DNA of 35,549 nt from Planctomycetota bacterium. Lineage in GTDB: Bacteria; Planctomycetota; Planctomycetia; Pirellulales; Pirellulaceae. This document shows positions 3,285 to 34,331 of the stretch, piece after piece. The notes under the pieces are model-generated. The model did no database searches. It was not told where the DNA came from and worked only from the letters and a program-made list of their open reading frames with translations. Both the position numbers and the translations under genes were made by a program. Location of the stretch: positions 1 to 35,549 of the forward strand of contig JAPOIJ010000034.1 of the NCBI GenBank assembly GCA_029979005.1. Direction: 5' to 3'. Each line of letters opens with the position of its first letter. Positions within the stretch are counted from its first letter, which is position 1.

Positions 3285-4706
3285 TCAGGCAAATAGATCT
3301 TGAACCGGTTGACCTTTGCCGTCTTCTGTAACGTAAAACGGACGCTGCTCGACGTCGAGAGCCGTGTCCGGGGCAATTCCCATGGCTCGAAAAATCGTTG
3401 CGTGTAGATCGCTAATGCTGACGGGATTTTCGATGGCTAAACAAGGCCGTTGGTCGGCAGTTTTTCCGTAGAGTTTTCCTTTTCCAATTCCACCGCCGAA
3501 CATTAAGACGCTGCTCCCACCGGTAAAGTGTCGGTGGAGCCCATATTGTTTCATTTCAGTCAGAATGTCTGCTTTGGCTCTTGATTGATCGCGGGCGGTA
3601 CTTCCAGGCACACCTTCGATCATCATGTCCCGGCTAAACTCGCTCGCGAGGACGACCAAGGTTCGATCGAGTAGTCCTCGTTCTTCAAGATCGAGAATTA
3701 ACTGAGCGACAGGTTGGTCGATATCTTTTTTCATTTTGGCGACTGTTGTATGTCCATTCTCATGAGTATCCCAAGATACAAAGGGTACGTACTCGGTTGT
3801 GACTTCGATAAATCTAGCACCAGCTTCTGTGAGTCGGCGAGCTAACAAACACCCTTGTCCGAATCGCGAAGTGTTGTAGATGTCGTAGGAATCTTTGGGC
3901 TCGAGTGTGAGGTCAAATGCGGTTCTTTCGGGTGAGCTTAATAGACGGTAGGCATTCTCCATTGACCTTACCATTGATTCTTTTTGATAATCAGAAACCA
4001 GATCTTTGTGTGTTTGATTGACCAGTTCCCGATATTTTTGATGTCGCTTTTTAAATCTTGTTGGCGTCATTCCTTTGGGGGGACGTACCGACTCGATCGC
4101 TTGATCAGGATACGGTAGGACAAACGGGCCGAATTCGGTTCCTAAAAATCCAGCCGTGTGAAATGCTTTCAATTCTTCCTTTTCACCCACCCCCTCGAGA
4201 CGTTGGCCGATATCAATAAAAGCGGGGATGGCAGGATTGCGAGGCCCGAGAAGTTTGGCCATCCATGCGCCAATGTGCGGAGCCGCTACAGTTTGAGGCG
4301 GGACGTATCCTGTGTGCCAATGATACTGGTGACGAGAATGTAGGATGTTACCAAGGTCGGCTTGGATGTGAGAGCGAATCAAGGTGCCACGATCAAGAAC
4401 CTGAGCGATGTTTTCTAATCCCTGAGTCAACTTGATTTCGTCAACAACCGTATCGATTGCTGGAAAGGTTGAGATAATATCTTTGGCGGCAAGGCCTTTT
4501 CTAAAGGGCTCATAATGTTTTGGGTCGAAAGTGTCAGGGGCTGCCATGCCGCCACCCATCCAAAGCAAAATGCATGTGTCTGCGGTTGCCGCAGGTGAAC
4601 TGACCGTTGCAGATGCCAGCCGCGGGGCGCCGCAGGCGAGGGCTGCCATCGTTGCGGCACTTGTTTTTTTGAGAAATTCTCTACGTGTTTCGTTTGAGCT
4701 GGACAT
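3285..4706 (-). CDS. DUF1501 family protein, Tat-exported
   Basis: The 473-residue protein starts with a twin-arginine signal (TRREFLKK at about 7-14, then an Ala-rich segment ending near ASA), so it is exported folded. The body has DUF1501 features related to the alkaline phosphatase/sulfatase fold: WMGGGMAAPDTFDPK near the start, WDTHENGH in the middle, LVVLASEFSRD and a late FGGGIGKGKLYG. Planctomycetes carry many DUF1501 genes beside DUF1549/DUF1553 cytochromes, as here. The biochemical role is unproven. I start at the ATG at 4706; a TTG two codons upstream is the only other option nearby. It lies 73 bp downstream of the cytochrome gene and is probably in the same operon. Confidence 0.88.
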   Translation of the reverse strand: MSSSNETRREFLKKTSAATMAALACGAPRLASATVSSPAATADTCILLWMGGGMAAPDTFDPKHYEPFRKGLAAKDIISTFPAIDTVVDEIKLTQGLENIAQVLDRGTLIRSHIQADLGNILHSRHQYHWHTGYVPPQTVAAPHIGAWMAKLLGPRNPAIPAFIDIGQRLEGVGEKEELKAFHTAGFLGTEFGPFVLPYPDQAIESVRPPKGMTPTRFKKRHQKYRELVNQTHKDLVSDYQKESMVRSMENAYRLLSSPERTAFDLTLEPKDSYDIYNTSRFGQGCLLARRLTEAGARFIEVTTEYVPFVSWDTHENGHTTVAKMKKDIDQPVAQLILDLEERGLLDRTLVVLASEFSRDMMIEGVPGSTARDQSRAKADILTEMKQYGLHRHFTGGSSVLMFGGGIGKGKLYGKTADQRPCLAIENPVSISDLHATIFRAMGIAPDTALDVEQRPFYVTEDGKGQPVQDLFA

Positions 4707-4746
4707 TTTCAATACTATTACGGTGTGAGTCGGAATGGCCTGGTTT

Positions 4747-4788
4747 GGTGTGTAGTTAATGGTGTTTAGTTGATGGTGTTTAGTTGAT
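4747..4788. repeat. Three 14-bp tandem repeats at an operon junction
   Basis: Two perfect copies of GGTGTTTAGTTGAT lie at 4761-4774 and 4775-4788. A third copy with two differences (GGTGTGTAGTTAAT) is at 4747-4760. The right-hand copy contains the TAA stop of the DUF1549/DUF1553 gene (complement of 4780-4782). The rest fills most of the gap to the DUF1501 gene. Because 14 is not a multiple of 3, copy-number change would alter the spacer without extending the upstream protein. Confidence 0.9.
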
Positions 4789-7251
4789 TAACTGAAATTC
4801 GGGTAGCATCACAATTAACCAGAGGATGTCCTCAATTGCTTCGATTTTATTCTCTTGGTTGGAGAAGTTTAGTAGTTCAAGTTCTTTCGTGTTGGGGAGT
4901 CGGGAAAGCGATTGGCGATAGATCGCATTAATTAATTGTTGATCTGACCAGGAATTCTTCTTTTGAAGTTCGATCCATTTCTTAGCGCCGATGTTTAGCC
5001 AATTTGCCAGAATGTTGCCATTGCTAAGGTCCAGTGCTTGCAGAGTTGAAAGTGAATCTGGGCGAGTTGTTACCACCTGCTCTCGATTAGGACGTCCTAA
5101 TGAACGCATTAGGAGATTCGAGACGACTAAAGATGCACGAACTGGAGGCGTTGGCTCCGGCGATTGTTCGAGACGACTTTTGGCGGATCCAATACTGGAA
5201 CGCACAGCAGCATAGGTCTTCCAGCCTTGAGGGACTACATGTGCGGCCGCCCAATTTACGGATTTCCCGGATTGATCAGAACCATTGGCTGTAATCGGCT
5301 CGCTGGTGAATTCCCAATCTGAGTTAGAACGAATGATTTGCCAGTTTTCTTTTGGGGCGCTTCGAAACAAGATCTCCGCGAGCAATCCAGCTGGGTTGGG
5401 AGCGCTACCCTGGTTAACCGCTTTTATGATAATTGTGTTTTGGCCAATTTTTAGGTGATCACGGAGATTAGACGTGACTGGTTGCGTCCAGTCTTTTCCG
5501 TCAGAAACACGTGTTCCATTTACCCAAAGCGTGAATTCGTTATCACATGTCGCGATACAATAAGCGTCTGAAGCTGGTGATTCGAGTGAGAAGCGTTTTC
5601 GAAAGTAGACCGTCTCTTTGGCTGGTGATGACAAGGCCGGGGTGTTGCTCCAAATCCATTTAGCAACAGTTTTTTTCCCAACGGCGGGTGTGATCTTTGC
5701 ATCGATCTTATCGGGAGCGGAATCAGATAACCTCCACACAGAGTCGACGAATTGTTCTGCCGTCATTCTCTTTGTGGAGACTCCATGAAATAAGTATCGA
5801 TTGGCGTCGGTCGATTTTGTTGATTTCGCCTGCGATCGGTAGATTTTGGAAGTCGCAATTAGCTGGAGTGTGTGCTTCAAGTTGTAGTCGTTTTCAACGA
5901 GGTTGGCTGCCAGAAAATCGAGTAGTGGCTCCGACCAGGATTCGTTGGCCATGACATCGACTGGATGGACTAGTCCCCGCCCCGTCATGCGGTGCCACAA
6001 GCGATTGACGATCGTTCTCGCAAAGCGCCCATTCTCACGCGTTGTCATTAAACGAGATAGCTGTTCGAGTCGTTGTTCACGTGGAAGCGAATGGTCGATG
6101 TTACCCAGTTCCGGAAAAACGAATTTACTTGTCGCGGTTTGCCCGATTGGAATATCGCATCGATGGATTTTGAGTGGTTGTTGAGCGGTGATGGCAGCCA
6201 GGCCATAGGCATCTTCAAGTCGCCAGTCATCGATGAAACTATCATGACATGATGCGCACTTCATATTGATGCCCAGAAAAACTTGCGAGATATTTTGAGA
6301 GAATTGCAGGGGTTCGATTTGACTTGCATTTACCCTGCCTCTCCATTTTATTCCTTTGATGAATCCAGCCGAATCCGCGGTAGGATTGATTAGTTCACGG
6401 ACAAATTGATCGTAGGGTTTGTTTTCGAGAAGTGATTGATGCAGCCACTGCGTAATTTGTTTTCTGCCTCCGTCGATGTATCCTGTGCCTACATAGTCAT
6501 TTCGAAGCAAGTCATTCCAGAACGACATCCAGTGGTCAGCGTAATCTCGATCTTTCGAAAGAAGTGATTCGATCAATCTTGTTTGTTTGTTTTCACTTTG
6601 GTCTTTTTGGTAAGAAGTGACTTCTACGGGAGTTGGGAGCAACCCCAGAAGGTCAAGTTTTGCTCGGCGAAGGAACGCTTGATCGGAAAGAAGTCCGGGT
6701 GGTTGGATGTCTTCGGTTTGAAAATATTGATCGATGAAATAGTCGATTGGGTTGTCGTTCGCGGCGATTTTGTTGGGGAGATCGGTCGGGCGGAGGGAGA
6801 GCGGTCTTTTGAACTGTTGTTTTTTTAGCGTGATCTCAGAAGGCCAAGATAGCCCGGCATTGATCCATGTTGCTACTTTTTTAATTTCTGAAGCGCTTAG
6901 CGGCGAACCCTCGGGAGGCATTAATTCTTCAGGATCCTCAGAAGTTATTCTCGAAAATACCTCGCTTTTCAGATGGTTCCCAAGCGAGATGTTCCCCGAG
7001 TCGATGAGTTGCTCTCGTGTTTCAATTGACAACCCTCCTTTGTAGACCCCGTTGGAATGGCATGCTGCACATTTTTTTTTCAGGATTGGGAAAATGTCAT
7101 GTGAGAAATCTATCTTCTCTTGGGAATTTGCGGGACGGCTAACAAAGAGCGTTAGACAAGATACAAGAGCAAACAGTGAGACCAACATTCGATTACGGTT
7201 AAACTCGTTTCGAGAATTCGGCAAGCAGTTGAATCGTTGTTTAGGAGTCAT
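4780..7251 (-). CDS. Planctomycete cytochrome c with DUF1549 and DUF1553 domains
   Basis: The 823-residue secreted protein has a hydrophobic signal (about 22-43, ending PANSQ) after a 20-residue polar lead; the ATG for residue 22 is an alternative start. A heme c site CAACH is at 61-65 with MPPEG near 111 as a possible distal ligand region (PSCyt1-like). DUF1549 follows, with a second CxxCH at 332-336 (KCASCHDSFIDDW). DUF1553 begins near 400 (RTIVNRLWHRMTGRGLVHPVDV). Between about 528 and 680 there is an inserted beta-rich module (ETVYFRKRF, FTLWVNGTRV) that looks like a galactose-binding/sugar-binding jelly roll. Together with the DUF1501 protein it forms a standard planctomycete two-gene unit. 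A role in periplasmic electron transfer linked to glycan breakdown is inferred. Confidence 0.9.
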   Translation of the reverse strand: MTPKQRFNCLPNSRNEFNRNRMLVSLFALVSCLTLFVSRPANSQEKIDFSHDIFPILKKKCAACHSNGVYKGGLSIETREQLIDSGNISLGNHLKSEVFSRITSEDPEELMPPEGSPLSASEIKKVATWINAGLSWPSEITLKKQQFKRPLSLRPTDLPNKIAANDNPIDYFIDQYFQTEDIQPPGLLSDQAFLRRAKLDLLGLLPTPVEVTSYQKDQSENKQTRLIESLLSKDRDYADHWMSFWNDLLRNDYVGTGYIDGGRKQITQWLHQSLLENKPYDQFVRELINPTADSAGFIKGIKWRGRVNASQIEPLQFSQNISQVFLGINMKCASCHDSFIDDWRLEDAYGLAAITAQQPLKIHRCDIPIGQTATSKFVFPELGNIDHSLPREQRLEQLSRLMTTRENGRFARTIVNRLWHRMTGRGLVHPVDVMANESWSEPLLDFLAANLVENDYNLKHTLQLIATSKIYRSQAKSTKSTDANRYLFHGVSTKRMTAEQFVDSVWRLSDSAPDKIDAKITPAVGKKTVAKWIWSNTPALSSPAKETVYFRKRFSLESPASDAYCIATCDNEFTLWVNGTRVSDGKDWTQPVTSNLRDHLKIGQNTIIIKAVNQGSAPNPAGLLAEILFRSAPKENWQIIRSNSDWEFTSEPITANGSDQSGKSVNWAAAHVVPQGWKTYAAVRSSIGSAKSRLEQSPEPTPPVRASLVVSNLLMRSLGRPNREQVVTTRPDSLSTLQALDLSNGNILANWLNIGAKKWIELQKKNSWSDQQLINAIYRQSLSRLPNTKELELLNFSNQENKIEAIEDILWLIVMLPEFQLIN

Positions 7252-8538: not shown

Positions 8539-9711
8539 CTAGGGACGCTGTTTCGGGGGAATTAAGTTTTTTGCGGCGAACGGTAATTCGGGGTTCACGA
8601 GTCCTCGAGTTGCATAACCCGACTGCTGTTTGATCTTAAGAGCCTCAGTTATTTCTGGATGATCTGGCTCCCAATATCGGTTTGCCAAATCTCGTGGAAT
8701 GTTTTGATCTATCGGCCTTACGATTCGAAATCCGATGCCCTGCCCTGCTTTTGAAGTCGTCCAATGAGGGCTGTGGGGTAACATTGGCTCTTCTTCATAG
8801 AGGTTCGCTCCCGATATTTTTCGAGAAAGAATCTGGCAGTCTTTGGGCGAATCAAGGAAAGAGCCTCCAACGGCTACACGTTTTCTTTGTTCCGTTGGCC
8901 ACGCAATGGCCGTCAGTGATTCGAGTGCGTTTGCGTTGTTCAGAGGCAATGGGATGGAGGCTTGGCCGTCCAGCACCCATTCGGCGACGTTCCCCTGCAT
9001 GTCATAAATTCCCCACGGATTGGGAAGTTTTGTGGCTACTTTTTCACGCGTCTTCGAGTTTTGTCGAGTCCATGCAATTTTATTGAGTGTGTCATTCGAT
9101 GTCGCCGCGGCTTTTTGATTTGCTGTGGCAGCATACTGCCATTCAATTGCACTCGGCAGACGATAGGGAGTGGAAGTCAATTTGGTTAAGTACTTTGTAT
9201 AAGCTTTAGCTCCAAATTGGGACACCGTTCCGACGGGATGACTTGGTGTTCCACCGTAGTAATGCCTGCGGTAATTCTCATCGTAAATCAAACTCGGAGC
9301 GGTAATCGCGTCAATTTCATTGTCGGGATTGATTTGCCGAATTTTCAAATTGGCAAATTGGCGGAAGATGGAACCCAGATTCAAAAAGGGTTCGTATTGT
9401 TGCCAGGTGGTTTCGGTTTTGGCAATCCAAAATGGCGCGACATCTACCTCAACTGATTTTTTGTTTCCATTTTTTGTTGGAAGTAACAGATTGAATGTTC
9501 CAGCGGGCACCGGAACCATGTCAATGGAAGTCTCGGTACCTGGAATCAAGAAGGAGTAGGGAACTAAGTAAACGTCTCGGTAGGCAACATAGTTACCACT
9601 GGAGGGTTGCATTGTGGCGATCCCAAGTCGGTTGCTCTCTTGGGCGCGCGTTGCTACTGAGGCATTCGAAATGCAGACTAGAAGCAACAGGCTCAGCACA
9701 CTCTTGGACAT
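8539..9711 (-). CDS. Exported FGE-sulfatase (SUMF1) domain protein, probably not a true formylglycine-generating enzyme
   Basis: The 390-residue protein has a signal peptide (about 1-24) and an FGE-sulfatase domain: VPAGTF, FWIAKTETTWQQYEPF, HPVGTVSQFGAKAYTKYL, YRLPSAIEWQYAA, NPWGIYDMQGNVAEWV, VAVGGSFLDSPKDC and GIGFRIVRP. In true FGE the GGSW/F-L stretch is followed by a Cys, five residues before a second Cys. Here the first position is Asp and only the second Cys (in KDC) remains. The copper-binding Cys pair is therefore incomplete, so sulfatase activation is unlikely; a binding or structural role is more probable. It lies 26 bp downstream of the tricorn gene and is probably co-transcribed with it. 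Confidence 0.85.
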   Translation of the reverse strand: MSKSVLSLLLLVCISNASVATRAQESNRLGIATMQPSSGNYVAYRDVYLVPYSFLIPGTETSIDMVPVPAGTFNLLLPTKNGNKKSVEVDVAPFWIAKTETTWQQYEPFLNLGSIFRQFANLKIRQINPDNEIDAITAPSLIYDENYRRHYYGGTPSHPVGTVSQFGAKAYTKYLTKLTSTPYRLPSAIEWQYAATANQKAAATSNDTLNKIAWTRQNSKTREKVATKLPNPWGIYDMQGNVAEWVLDGQASIPLPLNNANALESLTAIAWPTEQRKRVAVGGSFLDSPKDCQILSRKISGANLYEEEPMLPHSPHWTTSKAGQGIGFRIVRPIDQNIPRDLANRYWEPDHPEITEALKIKQQSGYATRGLVNPELPFAAKNLIPPKQRP

Positions 9712-19808: not shown

Positions 19809-21392
19809 CTATTTTTTCCACGGGACATTCGTCCAGTGAACTGAGTTCTGGTCGTTGGCTTGAGGGATGCCGGGAGTGCTCCGTCCATTTTCAATAAAGC
19901 GTCTGAGAGTTTCGGTCATTTTCTCGACGATCTCTGGATGTTGGAGATGCAAGTTGACGGATTCTTTTGGGTCGTTTTTCATGTCGTAGAGCTGGATTGC
20001 GGGAAGGCCCTGTTTGTTGGCCACTGCTTCGCGCGGTGCGCTCCAGCCTCCGGAGCCGCGACAAAAAAGTGTTTTCCATTGACCATTCTCTCCACCTTGC
20101 CGGATGGCAAAGTGTCCGGAAATGGAGTGACATACGATGGCTTCGTGAAGTGGTTGCTCCAGTCGCTTGCCTTGTAAAAGTGGAAGAAGGCTCAGGCTGT
20201 CTTCGGCAGCCTCATCTGGCAAATCATAGTTAGTGATATCCGCCAGAGTTGCCATCAGGTCGACGAGTGATACGACTTCATTCGATCGGGAGCTGGGCTT
20301 GGTGACTCCCGGCCAGCGAACGATTAAGGGGACTCGGTGCCCACCTTCAAATGCGTCGGCTTTGTTCCCTCGAAAGTTTTCAGTAAGGTGAACCCCTTTT
20401 TTTGCGAGAGATTCAAAATTTGCAATCGGCGAAGTTCCATTGTCAGTCGTGAAAATGACAATTGTATTATTTGCCTGCTGTGTATCGTCGAGTGCTTTAA
20501 GCAATTGCCCAACGATGGCATCAGTTTCAATTAGGAAATCAGCGTACTCGCTAATGCCACTTGTCCCTTTCCATGGCTGGTCGGGTGCAATGGGGGAATG
20601 CGGTGACGGCATTGGAAAGTACAGGAAAAAAGGTCTCTCTGAATCTTTTTGAGCATGAATAAATTCCGCACAGCGTTTGCCGTATTCTGGTAAGACGGAT
20701 TCCAGTCTCCACCCCGCGACGGCCGGACCAGGATTGACGCCAGTGTATTTGGTTAGCCCAATGGCTTCGGCGGACGTCGCAATGGTACCCAGCAATTTGT
20801 CATTCTCACGCCATGCGTAGGGTGGCCAATTGGGGACATCATCTCCAAACCAATAATCAAATCCTTTTCCGTTGGGACCGTCTTGGATAGCTCCGCTGAA
20901 ATCAATTTCCGCCAGCTTTGATGTGTAAGTGGGAGGCTCGCTATTATTCTGGGTCTTGCTGGGCCAATTAAATCCAAGATGCCACTTGCCGATCATATGG
21001 GTGCGGTAGCCTTGACGGCGCAACATTTCCGGCATGGTCAGTCGATTGGGTTCAATCAGCGGGCGTTCCCATTGACCGACAATGCCTCGTTTGAGTCTTG
21101 ATCGCCAGTTGTATCGTCCGGTCAATAATCCATAGCGGGATGGAGAGCAAACCGCGGACGTAGAGTGAGCATCCATGAACGAAAGGCCTTCATTGGCTAG
21201 TCGGTCAATGTGTGGAGTTTTGAGACCGAGGCGGTCGTTAAACGCGCTGACACTGTCAATTCCCATGTCGTCCGCAAAGATCAAGATAATGTTGGGATGC
21301 GTTTCGCCAATGAGTTGATTACCTCTCTCGCAGCAGGAAAACCAAGCAAGAAGAATTAGTCCAATCAGTCTTATTGTATGTTGAGAGGTCAT
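19809..21392 (-). CDS. Secreted type I sulfatase (arylsulfatase family S1)
   Basis: The 527-residue sulfatase has a hydrophobic export signal (LIGLILLAWFSCC, about 9-21); the Cys-Cys there could allow lipidation. Metal ligands start at DD (41-42). The formylglycine motif is C82-S-P-S-R, followed by YGLLTGRY, and the second metal cluster is FTTDNGTSP. Cys82 should be oxidised by a formylglycine-generating enzyme encoded elsewhere. The sulfated-glycan substrate is unknown. It is last in the minus-strand series after the PVC-dehydrogenase/ThuA gene (119-bp gap). Its C-terminal block GSGGWSAPRE...KQGLPA is shared with the sulfatase at 30930. Confidence 0.93.
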   Translation of the reverse strand: MTSQHTIRLIGLILLAWFSCCERGNQLIGETHPNIILIFADDMGIDSVSAFNDRLGLKTPHIDRLANEGLSFMDAHSTSAVCSPSRYGLLTGRYNWRSRLKRGIVGQWERPLIEPNRLTMPEMLRRQGYRTHMIGKWHLGFNWPSKTQNNSEPPTYTSKLAEIDFSGAIQDGPNGKGFDYWFGDDVPNWPPYAWRENDKLLGTIATSAEAIGLTKYTGVNPGPAVAGWRLESVLPEYGKRCAEFIHAQKDSERPFFLYFPMPSPHSPIAPDQPWKGTSGISEYADFLIETDAIVGQLLKALDDTQQANNTIVIFTTDNGTSPIANFESLAKKGVHLTENFRGNKADAFEGGHRVPLIVRWPGVTKPSSRSNEVVSLVDLMATLADITNYDLPDEAAEDSLSLLPLLQGKRLEQPLHEAIVCHSISGHFAIRQGGENGQWKTLFCRGSGGWSAPREAVANKQGLPAIQLYDMKNDPKESVNLHLQHPEIVEKMTETLRRFIENGRSTPGIPQANDQNSVHWTNVPWKK

Positions 21393-21511: not shown

Positions 21512-24500
21512 CTAATCGATATTTTGTTGGATCCGGTTTTTATCAGGGGTCTGTGAAGGGCAGCCATCACTTGGCACCTTTAATTTTGCTGTCCAAAGAA
21601 TTGCATTGAGTACCACCTTTCTAAAATTGTCGTCTTGCCAGCTTTCATGATTGTGGGCTCCGGTAAATCCAAACCCCCTCCCACCATCGGGACGTTGATA
21701 GGCCCATGCAACGTGCTGCGATTCGCCGTTCGCAACTGCAGCACGAACCGTGGGATTTCCGCTGCGGTCACCATCTGGACGGCGCAGCGTTTCCGGTGGT
21801 GGAAGATCAGAAAGAATAGGAGTTACTCCCTCAAGATTGTCGCGGAAACGCATGTGGTAATACCATTCATCATCAACACTAAAGGGTTTAACGCCGTTGC
21901 TAATTGGGTGGTTGGGGAATTGGGTGAATTTTGGTTTCCAGTGGGGGTTAACCGACCAGTTGAGATCACAGAATCCCCCCATCCAATCCAGGAACTTCTC
22001 ACCAGCCTTTCCCTTTTCTGCTTCGGTCGCCCAGTGAATCATGACCACGCCGACCCCTTTTTTCATTAGTTCGTCAAATTCATCTAGATGAGACCTTAAT
22101 ACATGGCCACGGTGTCCAGTGCTGAAAATCACAATGGTTGCCGCATCGTTGAAAATGGAGGGGTCCTTGGGATACCCATAGTGCGGGACAAGTTGAGCGT
22201 CGACGTTCAGGCCAGAGTCATTTAGTGCTTCAGCCAGAATCATATTGCCAGCACGGTGCTCGTGCTTCATTTTTCCATGGCTCGGTTTGCCAGAAATAAA
22301 GATGATTTTAGTTTTTTCACTCTCTGTTGGGAGCGGTTGGCTTTTGATCTTAACTTCGTTCCAGTAGGCCCATTCATTATGCCAGTCGTTCGCTCTGTTT
22401 TCGATCGAAAGTTGAACCGTCTGTCCGGCGAACTCAGTGAGGTCGACGGAGACCTCAAGCCACTCATCGGTTCCGACAGATTTGCTGCTAACCATTCTTT
22501 TTTTGAGCAGTTTATCGTTAGCCAGAACGCGAAGTTGCCAATCGCCATGCGGGTGATGGCTGACTTGAAGGTCAAGCGATGTCGCTTGATTAACGGGTAC
22601 TTTAAATTCACGGTACAAGTCACAGGGGATTTTTTTGTCCAGCGGATGTGTCTGGATTGCAGTCCGGTTCCGGAAGATGTCGTGTCGAATTACTCCTCCC
22701 TCGCCAACGTTGCGAACCTTGAACCCCGGCGCGACGGACTGCAGCATTCGCTGCCATTCCGGTTTTGTTTTTGTAATCTTGGCTCGTTTTTTTCCAGCGG
22801 TTTTATTGTTCTGACTGACCAATCGTCTGGCAACAAACTCTTGTAGTGCAGGGATTTTCCCATCGGTAACTAACTCCAAAGCTGCTTTCGGGTTCCCGAC
22901 TACCATAGGCTCAATGCCGAACCAATACATTCTGGGTAGGTTATTATCAGCCACGTCTTCCGAATGGCTAACCAGGCCCCGGAGGATTGGCCAACGCTGG
23001 TCGAAGGGAAGTCTTTGTACTGCGGCAGAAAGATAAAGGCGGACGATGGGGGATAGATCGTTGTCGGCTAACGACGCTAAGCGGTCAATGATGGAGTTGC
23101 CAAGCTTGGGCGAATCCGAGGCAGTAGAGTTAGCAAAGGCATGGGTTGGGCTGTCGTCGCATAAAAATTGGATGGCCCAGCCGCGAACGTACTCATCCGG
23201 ATGATTTAGAAGTTGCAGTAGGTTCGATTCGGCTAATCCACCAGTGACGTGGAGCGCCCACAGCGAGCGGAGTCTTTGGGGGGAACTGTTGGCAGTTTCA
23301 AAGTTTTTCATCAACGCCGTATGGACAGCGTTTCGATCGAGATTCTCTGAGGCTGCGCGGTAATGCAGTAGCGTCCGTGCCTGACGAACAAACCAGTCGT
23401 TGGAATGATTCTGAAGATCCACCAATTCCAGATCAGACATCTCACCTAAATCCGGGCAGATAAATGGCTGGGAGTTCTTGGGCATGATTCTGTAGACGCG
23501 GCCGCTATTTGGAAAATTAACGGCATTGCCGCAAACATCCGTGTCGTGCCAGTCAAGAATATAGACTCCGCCTTCCGGGCCAATTTCAACACTAAATCCA
23601 ACCCATGCAAGGTCGTTGGTTGGCATGAAGTCATCGCCATGCTGTCCAATGAAACTGGAGCCGTTTGGTTTCATGACGTCCGTGAGTACCGCGTGTTCGT
23701 GAATATTGCACATGAAGAGTCGATTGCGATATTCTTTCGGAAAAGTGTCGGCGAGATAAAAACGCGCGCCGCCATGGGCTGATAGATGGGTATGGTCGCG
23801 AATAGTTTTTATGTCATCGTATACATGTGGATTTACATGAGGTTTGCTTTGTTTGTGATAGACACCTCCCTGAACAATGTGAAATAAATGAGGGATCACA
23901 CAGCAGGTCGCGAATCCTTGGCCATGCTGATTGAAGTCGAACCCCCAAGGGTTGGAGAGCCCTCTGGCGTAGACTTCAAATTTGTGTTTCACGGGGTGGT
24001 ATCTCCAGATACCTCCATCAATGAATTGCCGCTCGTCATCCGGGGCGTCGGGAAGTCCGACCTTCGATTCGGTGAATACGCCATGGCAACCATAAAGCCA
24101 TCCATCTGGCCCCCAAATAAAACTATTCAGTGTTTCATGGCGATCATTGATTCCCCAGCCGTCGAGTAATACTTCCGGTGGTCCATCGGGTTGGTCGTCG
24201 CCGTCAGCGTCGGGGATGAACGTCAAATTAGGTGGCGAGCCAACAAAGACTCCGCCGAAACCGCAGGCGATTCCCGACGTAAAAGTCAATTTGTCGGTGA
24301 ATGTTTTTTTCGTGTCGAATGTGCCGTCTCCATCCGAATCTTCAAGGATCTGAATACGGCTGACTTGTTCATCGGTATGCTTTCGACGGGTTTGGTAGTT
24401 GAAGTTTTCCGCGATCCATAACCTGCCCCGGTCGTCAAAACAAAATGCAATTGGTTCGGCAATGTCGGGCTCTGCCGCAAAAATGGATACATCAAAACCA

Positions 24501-24709
24501 TTCGGAATGGCCATTTGAGCAACGGCTTGCCTGGGGCTTAAGAATGGGGCGTCACTGGTTTTGTGTTGCTTTTGCGGAAGGCGGTTTTTGGAGTCTTCAG
24601 GAGAGTCTTGCGCGTACACGATGGCAGTTGCGAAACTAATACTGAGTAAGCAAAAGCAGAGCAAGCGCAAGAAATTGTATGTCATCCGATGAATGCGTTG
24701 AATGCTCAT
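21512..24709 (-). CDS. PVC-type membrane-bound dehydrogenase propeller with HEAT repeats and a C-terminal ThuA domain
   Basis: The 1065-residue protein has a signal peptide (about 1-34, ending VYAQ). Residues about 50-415 form a six-bladed propeller of the PVC-type dehydrogenase group (PNGFDVSIFAAEPDIAEPIAFCFDDRGRLWIAE; repeated DGDG). HEAT-like repeats span about 426-520. A beta-sandwich, sugar-binding-like region lies at about 673-793. A ThuA domain (about 797-1045; IIFISGKPSHG, FSTGHRGH, GVVMIHWATE) ends the chain. It has no CxxCH heme site, unlike many relatives. The neighbouring cytochrome gene, which overlaps it by ATGA, may supply that part. Sugar or alcohol oxidation outside the cytoplasm is inferred. 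Confidence 0.9.
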   Translation of the reverse strand: MSIQRIHRMTYNFLRLLCFCLLSISFATAIVYAQDSPEDSKNRLPQKQHKTSDAPFLSPRQAVAQMAIPNGFDVSIFAAEPDIAEPIAFCFDDRGRLWIAENFNYQTRRKHTDEQVSRIQILEDSDGDGTFDTKKTFTDKLTFTSGIACGFGGVFVGSPPNLTFIPDADGDDQPDGPPEVLLDGWGINDRHETLNSFIWGPDGWLYGCHGVFTESKVGLPDAPDDERQFIDGGIWRYHPVKHKFEVYARGLSNPWGFDFNQHGQGFATCCVIPHLFHIVQGGVYHKQSKPHVNPHVYDDIKTIRDHTHLSAHGGARFYLADTFPKEYRNRLFMCNIHEHAVLTDVMKPNGSSFIGQHGDDFMPTNDLAWVGFSVEIGPEGGVYILDWHDTDVCGNAVNFPNSGRVYRIMPKNSQPFICPDLGEMSDLELVDLQNHSNDWFVRQARTLLHYRAASENLDRNAVHTALMKNFETANSSPQRLRSLWALHVTGGLAESNLLQLLNHPDEYVRGWAIQFLCDDSPTHAFANSTASDSPKLGNSIIDRLASLADNDLSPIVRLYLSAAVQRLPFDQRWPILRGLVSHSEDVADNNLPRMYWFGIEPMVVGNPKAALELVTDGKIPALQEFVARRLVSQNNKTAGKKRAKITKTKPEWQRMLQSVAPGFKVRNVGEGGVIRHDIFRNRTAIQTHPLDKKIPCDLYREFKVPVNQATSLDLQVSHHPHGDWQLRVLANDKLLKKRMVSSKSVGTDEWLEVSVDLTEFAGQTVQLSIENRANDWHNEWAYWNEVKIKSQPLPTESEKTKIIFISGKPSHGKMKHEHRAGNMILAEALNDSGLNVDAQLVPHYGYPKDPSIFNDAATIVIFSTGHRGHVLRSHLDEFDELMKKGVGVVMIHWATEAEKGKAGEKFLDWMGGFCDLNWSVNPHWKPKFTQFPNHPISNGVKPFSVDDEWYYHMRFRDNLEGVTPILSDLPPPETLRRPDGDRSGNPTVRAAVANGESQHVAWAYQRPDGGRGFGFTGAHNHESWQDDNFRKVVLNAILWTAKLKVPSDGCPSQTPDKNRIQQNID

Positions 24710-25929
24710 TTGACCATCTCCACTTGTTCGGTCGTTTGTAAATATTTGATGAGGTCTCGGACTTCCTGAGGTTTCATTTGGTCTAATTGTCCTTCTGGCA
24801 TCATTGATTTTTCGGATGTTTTGCGAGTTTCTATGTCAGCTTTGGCAATAACCAATCTGGGTTGTTCGACCGTCTTAAGAACTACCCTCGTTCCGTCTTC
24901 TTCTGCAATTACGCCATTAACTAGGCGCCCGTCGATGGTTTGGATTAAAACCATTTGATAACTTTCTGGAACGTCATAACTTGGAGCGACACTGTTGAGC
25001 AAAATGTAGTCGAGGTTGGCACGATTAGATCCGGTTAGATCCGGGCCGATTTCTCCGCCGGCGCCATAAAGGACATGGCAGGAAGCACATGTTTTCTCAT
25101 ATACCACTCGGCCGCGCGAGGCATTTGCGGTCTCAAGCGCTGTTCCCGAAACCATGCGTTTGTATTTTGCAATGGTTTTAATTCTGTCGGTCGTGACCGG
25201 TTTGACCTCGCCGTAGTAGTCAATAAAAGCCCGGCCGAGGATTTTATTTAGTGATCTTGCGACGTGCACAGGGATGTCTGATCGCGGAATTCTGTCCGAT
25301 TTCAGGGCGGCAAGAAGCCGTTCAGCATAAAATTGACGACTCGCTAAAGTTTCAATGACGGCACGTTGTTGTTCTTCTGAGAATTTGCTGTAACGGTCCA
25401 GTAATATTGTTGGGCCAGCCGCATTTTCTACTGCGGCGAATCCTCGAATTGCATCGAGACAGAATTCCGGCTCCTCAATTAAGAATTCGAGCAGATCGGA
25501 TGCTTCCTCATTTTGCTGGTTCAGGAGAGACCACAAAGCCTGACGACGAGCTTTGGGTGCAGCATTTCTATCCCGGACTTTGTCGAGAGCGAGTTGTTTC
25601 GCATCCGCATCTCCAAAAAATTGTGACAGTTGAAGAGCGAGATTGCGTATCTCCAGATTCTTGTTTCCAGCGAGTTTTGTCTTAAAAACTGAAGTCCAGT
25701 TTTCTGGGGCATTAACTCCGCGTCTTCCTTCAAGTCCGGCGATCATGCCGCGCATTAACGATTCCTGTACCTTCGGATCGTCCGTCTGATTCAAAGTTTC
25801 AACCAGCAACTGGAGGACTTTGGTTTCATCATCGGCAAGGACTGGTGAGACCGAATCGAGAACGAAAAAGGGAATGATTGCGAGAAGGCAAGGCAGCCAA
25901 TGGACTGGCGTATTGGATGGCATTGTCAT
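24706..25929 (-). CDS. c-type cytochrome with HEAT-like helices (planctomycete heme-binding domain)
   Basis: The 407-residue exported protein has a signal peptide at 1-32 (ending VLADD). Residues about 35-260 are helical, HEAT-like repeats. The heme c domain follows: VVYEKTCASCHVLYGAGGEIGPDLTGSNR with C281/C284/H285, and SMMPEGQLDQM (375-385) offering the distal Met. This matches the planctomycete TIGR02603-type heme-binding domain. I start at ATG 25929; longer starts run back into the upstream gene and lose the signal peptide. The stop overlaps the next gene's ATG by four bases (24706-24709), so translation is probably coupled and an electron-transfer partnership is likely. Confidence 0.9.
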   Translation of the reverse strand: MTMPSNTPVHWLPCLLAIIPFFVLDSVSPVLADDETKVLQLLVETLNQTDDPKVQESLMRGMIAGLEGRRGVNAPENWTSVFKTKLAGNKNLEIRNLALQLSQFFGDADAKQLALDKVRDRNAAPKARRQALWSLLNQQNEEASDLLEFLIEEPEFCLDAIRGFAAVENAAGPTILLDRYSKFSEEQQRAVIETLASRQFYAERLLAALKSDRIPRSDIPVHVARSLNKILGRAFIDYYGEVKPVTTDRIKTIAKYKRMVSGTALETANASRGRVVYEKTCASCHVLYGAGGEIGPDLTGSNRANLDYILLNSVAPSYDVPESYQMVLIQTIDGRLVNGVIAEEDGTRVVLKTVEQPRLVIAKADIETRKTSEKSMMPEGQLDQMKPQEVRDLIKYLQTTEQVEMVK

Positions 25930-25978: not shown

Positions 25979-27103
25979 TTAGGACGCCGAGAGCGTGAAT
26001 TCCGGGAGTTGCACAGGCGATCCGCCTTTGATGGCTGATTCATGAGCACACAGACCAACACAGGTCCAGTTTGCACTGGTGATCGCGTTCGGCCAGGGAT
26101 CTCGATTCTCGAGTAGTGCTGAAACCATTTCGTGAACCATGTGTGGGTGAGAGCCACCATGCCCGCCTCCCTGGACAAAAGAGAGATGGTCTGCGTCATG
26201 GATTTCTTGAGGAAGCGTATATTTTCGAATCGCCTCAGGAAGCAAGTGAGCAAAATCTGGAACTTCGATTTTTTCTGGAATTTCCGGTTCCGGCTTTTTG
26301 GCCGTATGGATTACGTGTGGTTCATTTTCAATTAAGGTCCATTCGAAACTTTTCTTGGTTCCGTAAACGTCGAAACTCTCTCGATATTGCCGCGCGACAT
26401 CGTAGAGGCATCGCCAAACATGGGCGGTGAGGTCACTGTCTTTGTATTTAATGTGGCAGGATTCGACAGCAAACCGGTTGCCTGACTTTTCAGCGATGTC
26501 TTCACGCACACTGCCTGAACCAAAGCAGCTTACATATTCAGCGACTCCATCCACTAAAGCGAGGCATGGACTGACAACGTGGGTTGCATAATGCATTGGA
26601 ATCATTCGCTGCCAATACTCTGGCCAACCATCCATATCCTGTGGATGAGATGCCGCAACGTGCTGAATTTCCCCAAGCTCACCTTTTTTATACATCTCTT
26701 TAATAAAGAGAAATTCACGGCTATACACGACAGTCTCGGCCATCATGTATTTCAAGCCAGTCTCGTTAACCTTTTCGACAATCTGTCGACACTCATCGAT
26801 AGTTGTCGCCATGGGCACGGTGCACATTACATGTTTGCCCGCATCCAGCGCTCGAAGCGACATCCACGCGTGGTCTTCGATTGGGCTGTTGATGTGAACA
26901 AAGTCGACGCTTGGGTCTGCCAGAACCTCATCGTAATCTGTGTATCGTTTTTCAATTCCAAATTGATCTGCCGCTTTGTTGAGAGCGACTTCATCACGAC
27001 GGCAAAGGGCAAGCACCGTAGTGTTCGGGTGACTCTGGTAGATTGGAATAAATTCAGCGCCGAACCCAAGGCCAATCATGGCAACATTTACATTCTGAGT
27101 CAT
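25979..27103 (-). CDS. Gfo/Idh/MocA-family oxidoreductase
   Basis: The 374-residue NAD(P)-dependent dehydrogenase-like protein has an N-terminal Rossmann motif, MIGLGFGAE at 9-17. No signal peptide is seen, so it is cytoplasmic. The usual EKP motif after GKHVxC is replaced by T95-V96-P97, so the normal catalytic/cofactor Lys is absent. The C-terminal beta-sheet domain includes HYATHVVSP, GGGHGGSHPHMVHE and ANWTCVGLCAHES. Substrate is likely a sugar derivative. It is first in the minus-strand series, 49 bp before the cytochrome gene, behind a weak GGA ribosome site. Confidence 0.9.
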   Translation of the reverse strand: MTQNVNVAMIGLGFGAEFIPIYQSHPNTTVLALCRRDEVALNKAADQFGIEKRYTDYDEVLADPSVDFVHINSPIEDHAWMSLRALDAGKHVMCTVPMATTIDECRQIVEKVNETGLKYMMAETVVYSREFLFIKEMYKKGELGEIQHVAASHPQDMDGWPEYWQRMIPMHYATHVVSPCLALVDGVAEYVSCFGSGSVREDIAEKSGNRFAVESCHIKYKDSDLTAHVWRCLYDVARQYRESFDVYGTKKSFEWTLIENEPHVIHTAKKPEPEIPEKIEVPDFAHLLPEAIRKYTLPQEIHDADHLSFVQGGGHGGSHPHMVHEMVSALLENRDPWPNAITSANWTCVGLCAHESAIKGGSPVQLPEFTLSAS

Positions 27104-32679: not shown

Positions 32680-33198
32680 ATGAAAACTGAGACAACGGCA
32701 GTAAGAAACCAGCGTTCCCCCAAAGTGCTTGTTGCTGGTTTGGTTGTATCGATCGTTGTTTGTTATGGGGTGGCGGCTATTGGAGGGATGGCGACTGCCG
32801 GAGCAGTTGACAGTTGGTATCGCGACGTTGTAAAGCCGGCTTGGAATCCACCCAACTGGGTTTTCGGTCCCGTGTGGAGTTTTCTTTATTTTACCATGGC
32901 AGTTTCTTCATGGCTGGTATGGAAGGCGGATCGAATTACCGCGACCCGCCCTGCCCTTGCCTGGTTTGGATTTCATCTCGTCCTGAATGCCGCGTGGTCG
33001 CTTTTGTTTTTTGGAATGAAGCGATTCGATCTCGCAATGATTGAAATTGTTTTGTTGTGGTTCTCAATCGCCATTTCAATAGGTTTGTATTATCGTTTTT
33101 CTAAATTGGCGGCCACGTTGCTGCTTCCCTATTGGCTGTGGGTCACCTTCGCGTCGTGCCTGAATTATGCGATCTGGTCACTCAATCGATCTGGCTAG
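32680..33198 (+). CDS. tspO: TspO/MBR family membrane protein
   Basis: The 172-residue protein has five membrane segments, the TspO fold. Hallmarks are WYRDVVKPAWNPPNWVFGPVWSFLY (47-70), LVLNAAWSLLFFGMKRFDLAMIEI (100-123) and LLPYWLWVTFASCLNYAIWSLN (148-169). TspO proteins bind porphyrins and affect tetrapyrrole and stress responses. The N-terminus carries about 15 extra residues before the first segment. Its convergent neighbour is heme A synthase (32-bp gap), which fits a tetrapyrrole theme, though no shared regulation is visible. Confidence 0.95.
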   Translation: MKTETTAVRNQRSPKVLVAGLVVSIVVCYGVAAIGGMATAGAVDSWYRDVVKPAWNPPNWVFGPVWSFLYFTMAVSSWLVWKADRITATRPALAWFGFHLVLNAAWSLLFFGMKRFDLAMIEIVLLWFSIAISIGLYYRFSKLAATLLLPYWLWVTFASCLNYAIWSLNRSG

Positions 33199-33230
33199 GC
33201 CCGTCGTCTGTTGGCATATTTTGACCAGTT

Positions 33231-34331
33231 TCAGCTATCTTTGCCGTCTATGTGCAGCGAGTACAGTCTCATGATCCAGTGCCATGTGACCGCTAGTAGA
33301 ACGGCCGTCATGCCAACGTGTAGAACCTGAATGACTTGATAGACAGAAATGTGTGCCAGGATAATTCCCATTAGCATCATGGCAACTACCATTGCCACAA
33401 TGAGTTTGGGTTCGCGAAGTTGGAGCGACGTTTTGTTTTTAACCCAATAAAAAATCAGGCCTGCCGTGATTAAGAGACTCCATGAAAAACTACGATGTAC
33501 TTTGTAAATCAGCGTTTCTCCCAGTTTGTCGGCCCACTGGTCACGGTCCAGTCCATCTGCAACTTTTGCAAATTCGTCGGTCTGTTCACGCAATTGACTG
33601 CCCATTAGGCCTTCACAAAACAGAAAGGCAAAAAAGATGAAAGAGAGAAACAGAAGCTGCTTCTTTAGTTTTGGAGCGACTTTGGGCCCGGTAGCAGAGT
33701 CGCCAATAGGGCGGGATAAAAAGACGACTGAGACCATCATGCAGATTAATAAAAATGCCAAACCCATGTGAAGTGTAATGATTCCCGGTTGCAATCCGCT
33801 CCTTACAACAAGGGCTCCCATGATTGCGTTCCCAATGACATCGATTAGCCCCAACCAACTGAGCAAAATGATCCAGCCCCGGTGGCGTTGAGCCGTGAAT
33901 GAGAACAACGCCAGTAAGAGCGACGAAATTCCTAAAGGCAGTGAAGTGAGTCGGTTGCCGAACTCGATCCACGTGTGCACGGGGTCGAAACTGTCGAGCA
34001 CAGTTTCGCGTGTGATCGTATCGGGGTCGATGCCCTTCTTGATGGCATGTCGTTTGAACTTTTCGAGGTCCAATTTGTCTACATCAATTTGATCCACACT
34101 CGTTGGAGGAATCAGGCACCCCCAGCACGTCGGCCAGTCTGGGCAACCCAAGCCAGAGCCTGTTACTCGAACGGTGGCACCAACGACAACCAGAATGATC
34201 AGACTGATAAGCGTGATCCAGGCAAGGCGGTTTACGAACATCGCGAAAGACCTTCCCCCTCGCATTGATTGCTGAATGTTGACATTGGTATCGCGGTGTA
34301 ATTGCGGTAGATGGTCATTGACGGTTGGCAA
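33231..34331 (-). CDS. ctaA: Heme A synthase (COX15/CtaA)
   Basis: The 366-residue protein has about eight membrane segments and makes heme A for cytochrome aa3-type oxidases by oxidising the C8 methyl of heme O. The four heme-ligand histidines are visible: H119 (HTWIEFGNR), H188 (LHMGLAF), H279 (VHRSFSW) and H338 (LHVGMTA). The extracellular Cys pair is C63/C69 (GCPDWPTC). A loop of about 40 polar residues follows this pair (about 75-112). The start is a TTG (34331); internal ATGs at residues 23 and 31 are possible because the first membrane segment starts near 33. No oxidase or heme O synthase gene is in the window. Confidence 0.93.
   Translation of the reverse strand: MPTVNDHLPQLHRDTNVNIQQSMRGGRSFAMFVNRLAWITLISLIILVVVGATVRVTGSGLGCPDWPTCWGCLIPPTSVDQIDVDKLDLEKFKRHAIKKGIDPDTITRETVLDSFDPVHTWIEFGNRLTSLPLGISSLLLALFSFTAQRHRGWIILLSWLGLIDVIGNAIMGALVVRSGLQPGIITLHMGLAFLLICMMVSVVFLSRPIGDSATGPKVAPKLKKQLLFLSFIFFAFLFCEGLMGSQLREQTDEFAKVADGLDRDQWADKLGETLIYKVHRSFSWSLLITAGLIFYWVKNKTSLQLREPKLIVAMVVAMMLMGIILAHISVYQVIQVLHVGMTAVLLAVTWHWIMRLYSLHIDGKDS

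Follow-up and report, generated by a model that had tools for sequence, protein, structure and literature searches.

We describe here two coupled genes, C and E, on the minus strand of a 35,549-nucleotide contig (JAPOIJ010000034.1, assembly GCA_029979005.1) from a planctomycete of the family Pirellulaceae; the whole of this stretch of DNA is referred to as the window. To judge from its sequence, the pair looks like a single-chain PVC-type dehydrogenase that has been cut within its HEAT solenoid and whose halves have been re-ordered, with the propeller in C and the electron carrier in E. We consider it fairly probable that the two proteins are halves of one exported sugar (glycan) oxidase that arose from such a chain and has an exchangeable carrier half, and that ThuA, which in the window is the last domain of C, handles the product.

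C (21512-24709, minus strand; 1065 aa) starts with what appears by eye to be a signal sequence, followed by a sugar-dehydrogenase-type propeller (residues 71-412; 23474-24499) that matches TIGR02604 with 337.5 bits against an NCBIfam cut-off of 122.2 and Pfam family DUF7133 over residues 58-395. Behind the propeller lie the first half of a HEAT solenoid, HEATA (residues ~417-633; 22811-23461), the end of which is the putative cut point, then a beta-sandwich resembling a carbohydrate-binding module (CBM) (residues ~661-790; 22340-22729), and finally the ThuA domain (residues 814-1040; 21590-22270; PF06283, 65.1 bits against a Pfam cut-off of 33.4), all on the minus strand. The AlphaFold2 model of C (mean predicted local distance difference test score, pLDDT, 79.7; predicted TM-score, pTM, 0.62) has propeller, solenoid, beta-sandwich and ThuA in this order, with helices 426-631 forming a HEAT-like solenoid of C's own. 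Foldseek matched C, and likewise a fused relative, L022, to CBM35, CBM6 and CBM22 chains among others (those of L022 being weak, 3e-3 or more); we infer that they fall on the beta-sandwich of C, which is absent from the initial annotation, the match tables giving no residue ranges. The product name of TIGR02604 implies a CxxCH heme domain in the same chain. A search of the C chain for this motif found none, and the heme domain resides in E instead.

E (24706-25929, minus strand; 407 aa) likewise carries a signal sequence by eye and consists of the second solenoid half, HEATC, and a TIGR02603 heme c domain (residues 268-399; 24733-25128; 115.2 bits against an NCBIfam cut-off of 68.15) with the motif CASCH at residues 281-285 (25075-25089), both on the minus strand. 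The HEAT match of E lies below the Pfam cut-off (22.4 versus 27.7 bits); in the predicted model of L022 the equivalent region is a helical repeat. The heme domain matches Kustd1711 (7zs0) at 2.4e-11, the predicted heme domain of L022 resembles it in fold (Z 14.6), and Met377 of E falls on Met292 of Kustd1711. The latter we take to be the axial heme ligand, which fits the existence of M292C and M292H mutant entries. Each of the 68 full heme-type E domains contains both CxxCH and SxMP. The stop codon of E overlaps the start of C in an ATGA read from the sequence (24706-24709, minus strand). This tight junction recurs: in a set of 73 separate E genes that includes that of the window, the final bases are ATGA in 41 and GTGA in 11, ATG and GTG being putative starts. 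The initial annotation had described C as ending in ThuA without a CxxCH, and HEAT-like helices plus heme c as sitting in a second protein overlapping by ATGA, and this description holds.

For comparison we used the best 80 of 225 relatives (L numbers); the trees have 78 rows, including the window, with L056, L073 and L088 omitted as partial. They are quick trees without bootstrap that gave long-branch warnings, and their root is unproved. In addition, 60 genomes of the family (G numbers), drawn evenly, were surveyed, the window's own genome being G000 (92.5% complete). This survey yielded 126 C rows, 5 of which match the CBM part only, and 112 E rows.

The descent from a single chain is best seen in a paralogue from the same genome, L089 (1036 aa). 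Its residues 25-701 align to residues 26-664 of C (384 bits) and its residues 646-1034 to residues 22-397 of E (183 bits). HEATA was matched 121 times in the 60 genomes, 12 times in C orthologues and 109 times elsewhere, and in 83 of these 109 other matches HEATC stands directly behind HEATA in the same frame, with a median gap of 18 bases (-138 to 114). L149 displays the complete order, with the propeller at 379-749, HEATA at 759-960, HEATC at 960-1180 and heme at 1184-1325. The head-to-tail order is not universal, though it is the clear majority; as points against our reading, the HEATC row is missing at the threshold used for 23 of the 109 matches and lies in another frame in 3 (behind HEATA in 2, in front of it in 1). 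In the quick propeller tree L089 and the split group are sisters (support 98), placed among mostly one-chain forms, and fission is therefore the simplest reading, so that the split would have run from one chain to two. Three further relatives (L022, L024, L071) are single chains of the order HEATC-heme-propeller-HEATA-CBM which, as far as sequence goes, circularly permutes that of L089. The initial annotation had seen a split electron path here. The placing of the heme domain in a second, coupled gene stands, but it probably arose when a one-chain ancestor was cut within its HEAT solenoid, not by the addition of a cytochrome; that a cytochrome was merely recruited beside a propeller was considered and dropped, given the L089 alignment and the head-to-tail HEAT matches.

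G000 contains 22 TIGR02604 match rows in 19 frames, some of them below cut-off. In the stretches that were read, a propeller match (weak in some cases) occurs together with a heme match in 13 frames; one further split pair (L091) occurs beside that of the window, and a few frames with a propeller either run off the contig or lack heme. The L091 pair (L091:2861-8049, G000 contig C156) has a 1027-aa GDSL-propeller-HEAT frame, followed ~20 bases on by a 695-aa frame that contains copper as well as heme domains. Outside the orthologues, E lies behind C in another frame in G035:C6 and G019:C1, and in front of C in G052:C264, where two stop codons fall inside the C match; these are other split pairs or broken genes. 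E itself is broken into two or three frames in L036:2726-3875 and L079:7892-9068, by sequencing error or decay.

Orthologues were delimited by score, at least 401 bits for C (next 179), at least 146 for E (next 114) and at least 453 for ThuA (next 370), with thresholds chosen after seeing the score gaps. So defined, C is present in 12 of the 60 genomes and E in exactly these 12; E is upstream of and adjacent to C in 11 and fused to it in G049. The pairing is strict for orthologues. Among the 78 tree loci with a full C core, E is visible at 76, the window included; beyond these, L035 shows a copper-type E end, and the L033 contig is too short to tell. L070, from the culturable relative Rhodopirellula baltica, has both genes. 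Fourteen E rows have no C row nearby. All are outside the orthologues and most are in long frames; some stand in frames of 425-510 aa (G003:C43, G022:C289, G032:C71).

Alternatively, E could be soluble and carry electrons back and forth between C and other enzymes without entering a stable complex. It is a separate gene with, by eye, its own signal sequence, and its carrier end tolerates exchange, as would suit a shuttle. Set against this are the putative cut inside a repeat solenoid, which would leave both halves with a matching open end, the presence of E at the C locus in all 12 genomes that have C, and the existence of permuted C/E fusions; we regard a free carrier as quite improbable. The predicted model of the fused L022 chain (1157 aa) has a pTM of 0.81, which suggests a fixed placement of E on C. 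This value, coming from a fused relative, is indirect for the C-E interface and the pTM of C alone is 0.62, which tells against a firm conclusion on assembly.

In nine loci, all of them Verrucomicrobiota, E ends in a copper-type domain and not in heme c: L034, L035, L036, L037, L038, L040 and L075, which are Opitutia or Verrucomicrobia, and L081 and L082. The azurin-like motifs HNLAI and CTYPGH...M are present in 9 of 9 copper E sequences. Three of these (L034, L040, L081) were scanned and match PF00127 (Copper-bind) with 35.8-37 bits against 21.2; the other six match a profile built from L038. By comparison with azurin, we take the His and the Cys-x4-His-x3-Met of these domains to be type 1 copper ligands. 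The replacement is sharpest between L081 (copper) and L078 (heme). Up to about residue 400 their E proteins are 80-95% identical (72% in the first 40 residues); after it, E of L081 shows 62-97% identity to three copper E proteins of the Opitutia type and 10-50% to E of L078. The C proteins of L081 and L078 are 91-98% identical in every alignment segment compared. This pattern indicates a recombination event within E that changed the metal and left the catalytic half much as it was. L082 resembles L081 (90-99% in C segments, 82-100% in E segments after residue 80), and for L082 the proposed recombination rests on this likeness. On the C tree, where L078, L081 and L082 form an unresolved trio, parsimony needs three changes between heme and copper.

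The best evidence that E transfers electrons is that a heme and a copper carrier can occupy one and the same position. Tentatively, and with less than even confidence, we would go further and regard the carrier half as an exchangeable cartridge, in which heme c and type 1 copper are swapped by recombination within E next to a nearly unchanged catalytic half, perhaps under the iron and copper supply at sea, the propeller working without self-made pyrroloquinoline quinone (PQQ) and with a scavenged or novel cofactor. Copper domains share frames with propellers elsewhere too, in more than a dozen cases, and in G000 copper and heme domains follow one another in series within two frames (L091 and L093).

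The fold of the propeller in C resembles that of sugar-oxidizing enzymes. Soluble glucose dehydrogenase (sGDH), Asd and the fungal AA12 pyranose dehydrogenase have propellers like that of C (Z 18-22), the best being the PQQ sugar dehydrogenase 3a9g (Z 22.4, 283 aligned residues, root-mean-square deviation 3.4) and AA12 (6h7t, Z 21.3). In AA12 enzymes, too, there is a fused heme domain. Unlike these enzymes, the system in the window adds a HEAT solenoid, a separate carrier chain and ThuA. Searches against PDB sequences gave no match for C (phmmer) or for the A1 profile (740 positions, shorter than C); a more diverse propeller profile, from G000 and relatives, matches sGDH 1c9u at 1.1e-7.

Several observations weigh against the propeller being a PQQ-dependent dehydrogenase, or an oxidase at all. 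In the profile alignment to 1c9u the conserved His of the window is one residue off the column of sGDH His144. PqqC had no match in 58 of the 60 family genomes, G000 among them, being present in 2 of 60 and in 1 of the 47 best assembled, and PqqE had no match over cut-off in G000. PQQ, if it is the cofactor, may be taken up from outside. The rarity of PqqC in a family rich in PQQ-type propellers is an observation in its own right. One assayed relative, Lac161_ORF7 (TIGR02604-HEAT-TIGR02603), is reported as a lactose hydrolase and not an oxidase: purified from E. coli, it released glucose from lactose with a Km of 1.8 mM (PMC5342196). This result fits a disaccharide substrate and speaks against a simple dehydrogenase. 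The propeller might accordingly be a glycoside-cleaving or glycan-binding domain, with heme or copper serving for sensing or a separate redox step, the more so as the fold is common to lactonases and a sialidase. The assay, however, as presented, leaves host LacZ or an oxidation route possible (PMC5342196). Moreover, the top fold matches are PQQ sugar dehydrogenases and AA12, the sGDH profile match points the same way, and a linked electron-carrier half that is replaced by another electron carrier fits a redox enzyme. We thus hold a non-dehydrogenase propeller to be improbable and retain the sugar oxidase as our reading.

The role of ThuA in such an oxidase has to be judged from its linkage. 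ThuA is generally linked to keto-sugar metabolism, with presumed action on 3-keto sugars, and the initial annotation had suggested that one polypeptide may couple oxidation to the handling of a keto product. A C-ThuA chain turns out to be one arrangement of several, and the suggestion is not supported in that form: of the 78 loci, 20 have ThuA fused to C, 24 have it in a gene of its own and 7 have it fused to E. C-ThuA fusions occur in two separate clades and ThuA-E fusions in others, parsimony requiring two changes for the former and three for the latter when only well-supported branches are counted. The initial annotation had named propeller-ThuA chains occurring widely without the cytochrome as grounds for refuting it; none was found to lack a carrier: 19 of the 20 have E or a carrier end, and the contig of the twentieth, L033, is too short. 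The expectation that the neighbour would be a cytochrome is correct for 12 of the 20, which have a heme E, but not for 7, in which E is of the copper type (L035 included).

The ThuA domain of the window is 70-80% identical to those of nine other loci, fused or not, and its fold matches 4e5v (Z 18.8) and 1t0b (Z 16.8). For separate ThuA copies, the 7 inspected starts look signal-bearing by eye. Three of the nearest other ThuA domains (57-61% identical) were examined; all stand in ThuA-propeller frames, 2 of which have heme in the same frame. A ThuA orthologue occurs in 10 of the 60 genomes, and C/E is present in 9 of these 10 (Fisher p 1.4e-7, a test that ignores kinship). It is fused in G000, adjacent in G001 and G046, and ~22 kb away on the same contig in G020.

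Against a role for ThuA in the system, a ThuA of this type was not seen beside C in 27 of 78 loci, the orthologue is absent from 3 of the 12 C/E genomes (G045, G049, G055), and the co-occurrence test, besides ignoring kinship, uses score thresholds set after the gaps had been seen. The contigs of three of the 27 loci end less than 900 bases behind C (L042, L048, L053), and in L044, L048, L065 and L068 E reaches the contig start, so that a ThuA in front could be cut off. Loci without an adjacent ThuA were at one stage taken as lacking ThuA; this was dropped, some genomes carrying the orthologue elsewhere. It is conceivable, then, that ThuA is a general periplasmic sugar enzyme, loosely tied to C/E, fused or nearby by chance and with no channelling. 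Some 360 kb separate it from C/E in G036, and in G012, G026, G033 and G035 the two lie on different contigs, though in G033 and G035 ThuA is close to a contig end and may still be linked. In addition to the three C/E genomes without it, G004 has a ThuA orthologue but no C/E, and in L078 and L081 Pfam places DUF6807 at the N-terminus of E, where ThuA sits in ThuA-E relatives. ThuA has nevertheless been fused to two different partners in separate clades, accompanies C/E in nine of its ten genomes and is strongly conserved whether fused or not. A chance association seems to us unlikely, if not negligibly so, and the data support the view that ThuA genuinely belongs with this dehydrogenase.

DUF6807 of E is assigned by similarity in L082 and L085. 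Another locus, L149:325-4320, has DUF6807, propeller, HEAT and heme in one chain, and DUF6807 and ThuA therefore appear to be alternative accessory domains. A 1546-aa frame of G000 (L093:11213-15850, contig C43) combines ThuA, a GDSL lipase, propeller, HEAT, copper-bind and cytochrome c.

In the mechanism that we propose, an ancestor of the order propeller-HEATA-HEATC-heme would have been cut between its two HEAT halves. The back half, HEATC-heme, would have ended up as a gene of its own, upstream of the front half and coupled to it, and the freed C end would have been taken by the CBM-like module plus, in the lineage of the window, ThuA. In the periplasm, C and E would most probably come together again as one HEAT solenoid, holding the electron carrier at the propeller. 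The propeller would oxidize a glycan-derived sugar, and electrons would leave through the heme c of E, or the type 1 copper centre in some relatives, to the respiratory chain. ThuA and then a neighbouring Gfo/Idh/MocA enzyme may process the oxidized product, probably of a sulfated glycan; we suggest this because of the known pathway link of ThuA and the sulfatase-rich context.

The Gfo/Idh/MocA oxidoreductase gene (25979-27103) is 49 bases upstream of E and a sulfatase gene (19809-21392) is 119 bases downstream of C, both on the minus strand. Clusters of these families, named from one Pfam-scanned representative per cluster, are present at 26 and 40 of 77 related loci, respectively. A regulator with PAS and AraC-type helix-turn-helix domains (cluster c5, one scanned) is found near the module in 8 loci, e.g. 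L031:182-985. Elsewhere, the window has a sulfatase-modifying-factor-like gene at 8539-9711 and holds two sulfatases; a DUF1501 gene adjoins a PSCyt1/DUF1549/DUF1553 gene at 3285-7251, and at 32680-34331 TspO adjoins, on the opposite strand, a COX15/CtaA gene (heme A synthesis). DUF1501 with PSCyt1/DUF1549/DUF1553 is a common planctomycete gene pair.

The system shares its propeller, HEAT and heme domains with single-chain PVC-type CxxCH proteins (TIGR02604, HEAT and TIGR02603, e.g. Lac161_ORF7) and differs from them in being divided between two genes, cut in the solenoid and re-ordered, with a CBM-like module and ThuA on the C end. Its ThuA shares family and fold (Z 16.8-18.8) with the ThuA of trehalose utilization (PF06283; 1t0b, 4e5v, 4jqs) but is tied to a putatively electron-transferring propeller and, by eye, exported. 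Copper carriers replace heme carriers in photosynthesis as well, in plastocyanin and cytochrome c6; the swap in E, in contrast, affects a single domain of a polypeptide encoded at a dehydrogenase locus. A further parallel is the LacABC route, the families of which presumably differ from those in the window. There, a glycoside 3-dehydrogenase oxidizes in the periplasm and a DUF1080 3-keto hydrolase then cleaves the keto product (PMC9007349). It parallels the proposed C/E-ThuA route in outline.

No published description of a C/E/ThuA module was found in the literature searched, the coverage of which leaves out most subscription journals. The known kind here is the PVC-type dehydrogenase; what is new is its split, permutable form with an exchangeable carrier half and a likewise exchangeable accessory domain. 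In relatives the parts are re-joined, re-ordered and even replaced, which suggests one exchangeable kit, and C/E looks like a clean gene fission inside a repeat solenoid. PVC-type propeller-heme proteins are numerous in planctomycetes, and a single one with an assay was found in the literature searched. Nature supplies a set that makes their function testable: one chain, two halves, a circular permutant, ThuA on either half, and heme or copper. With L078 and L081, which have nearly the same catalytic half and different metals, small sets of matched proteins can be used to compare electron transfer, the use of metals and the part played by ThuA.

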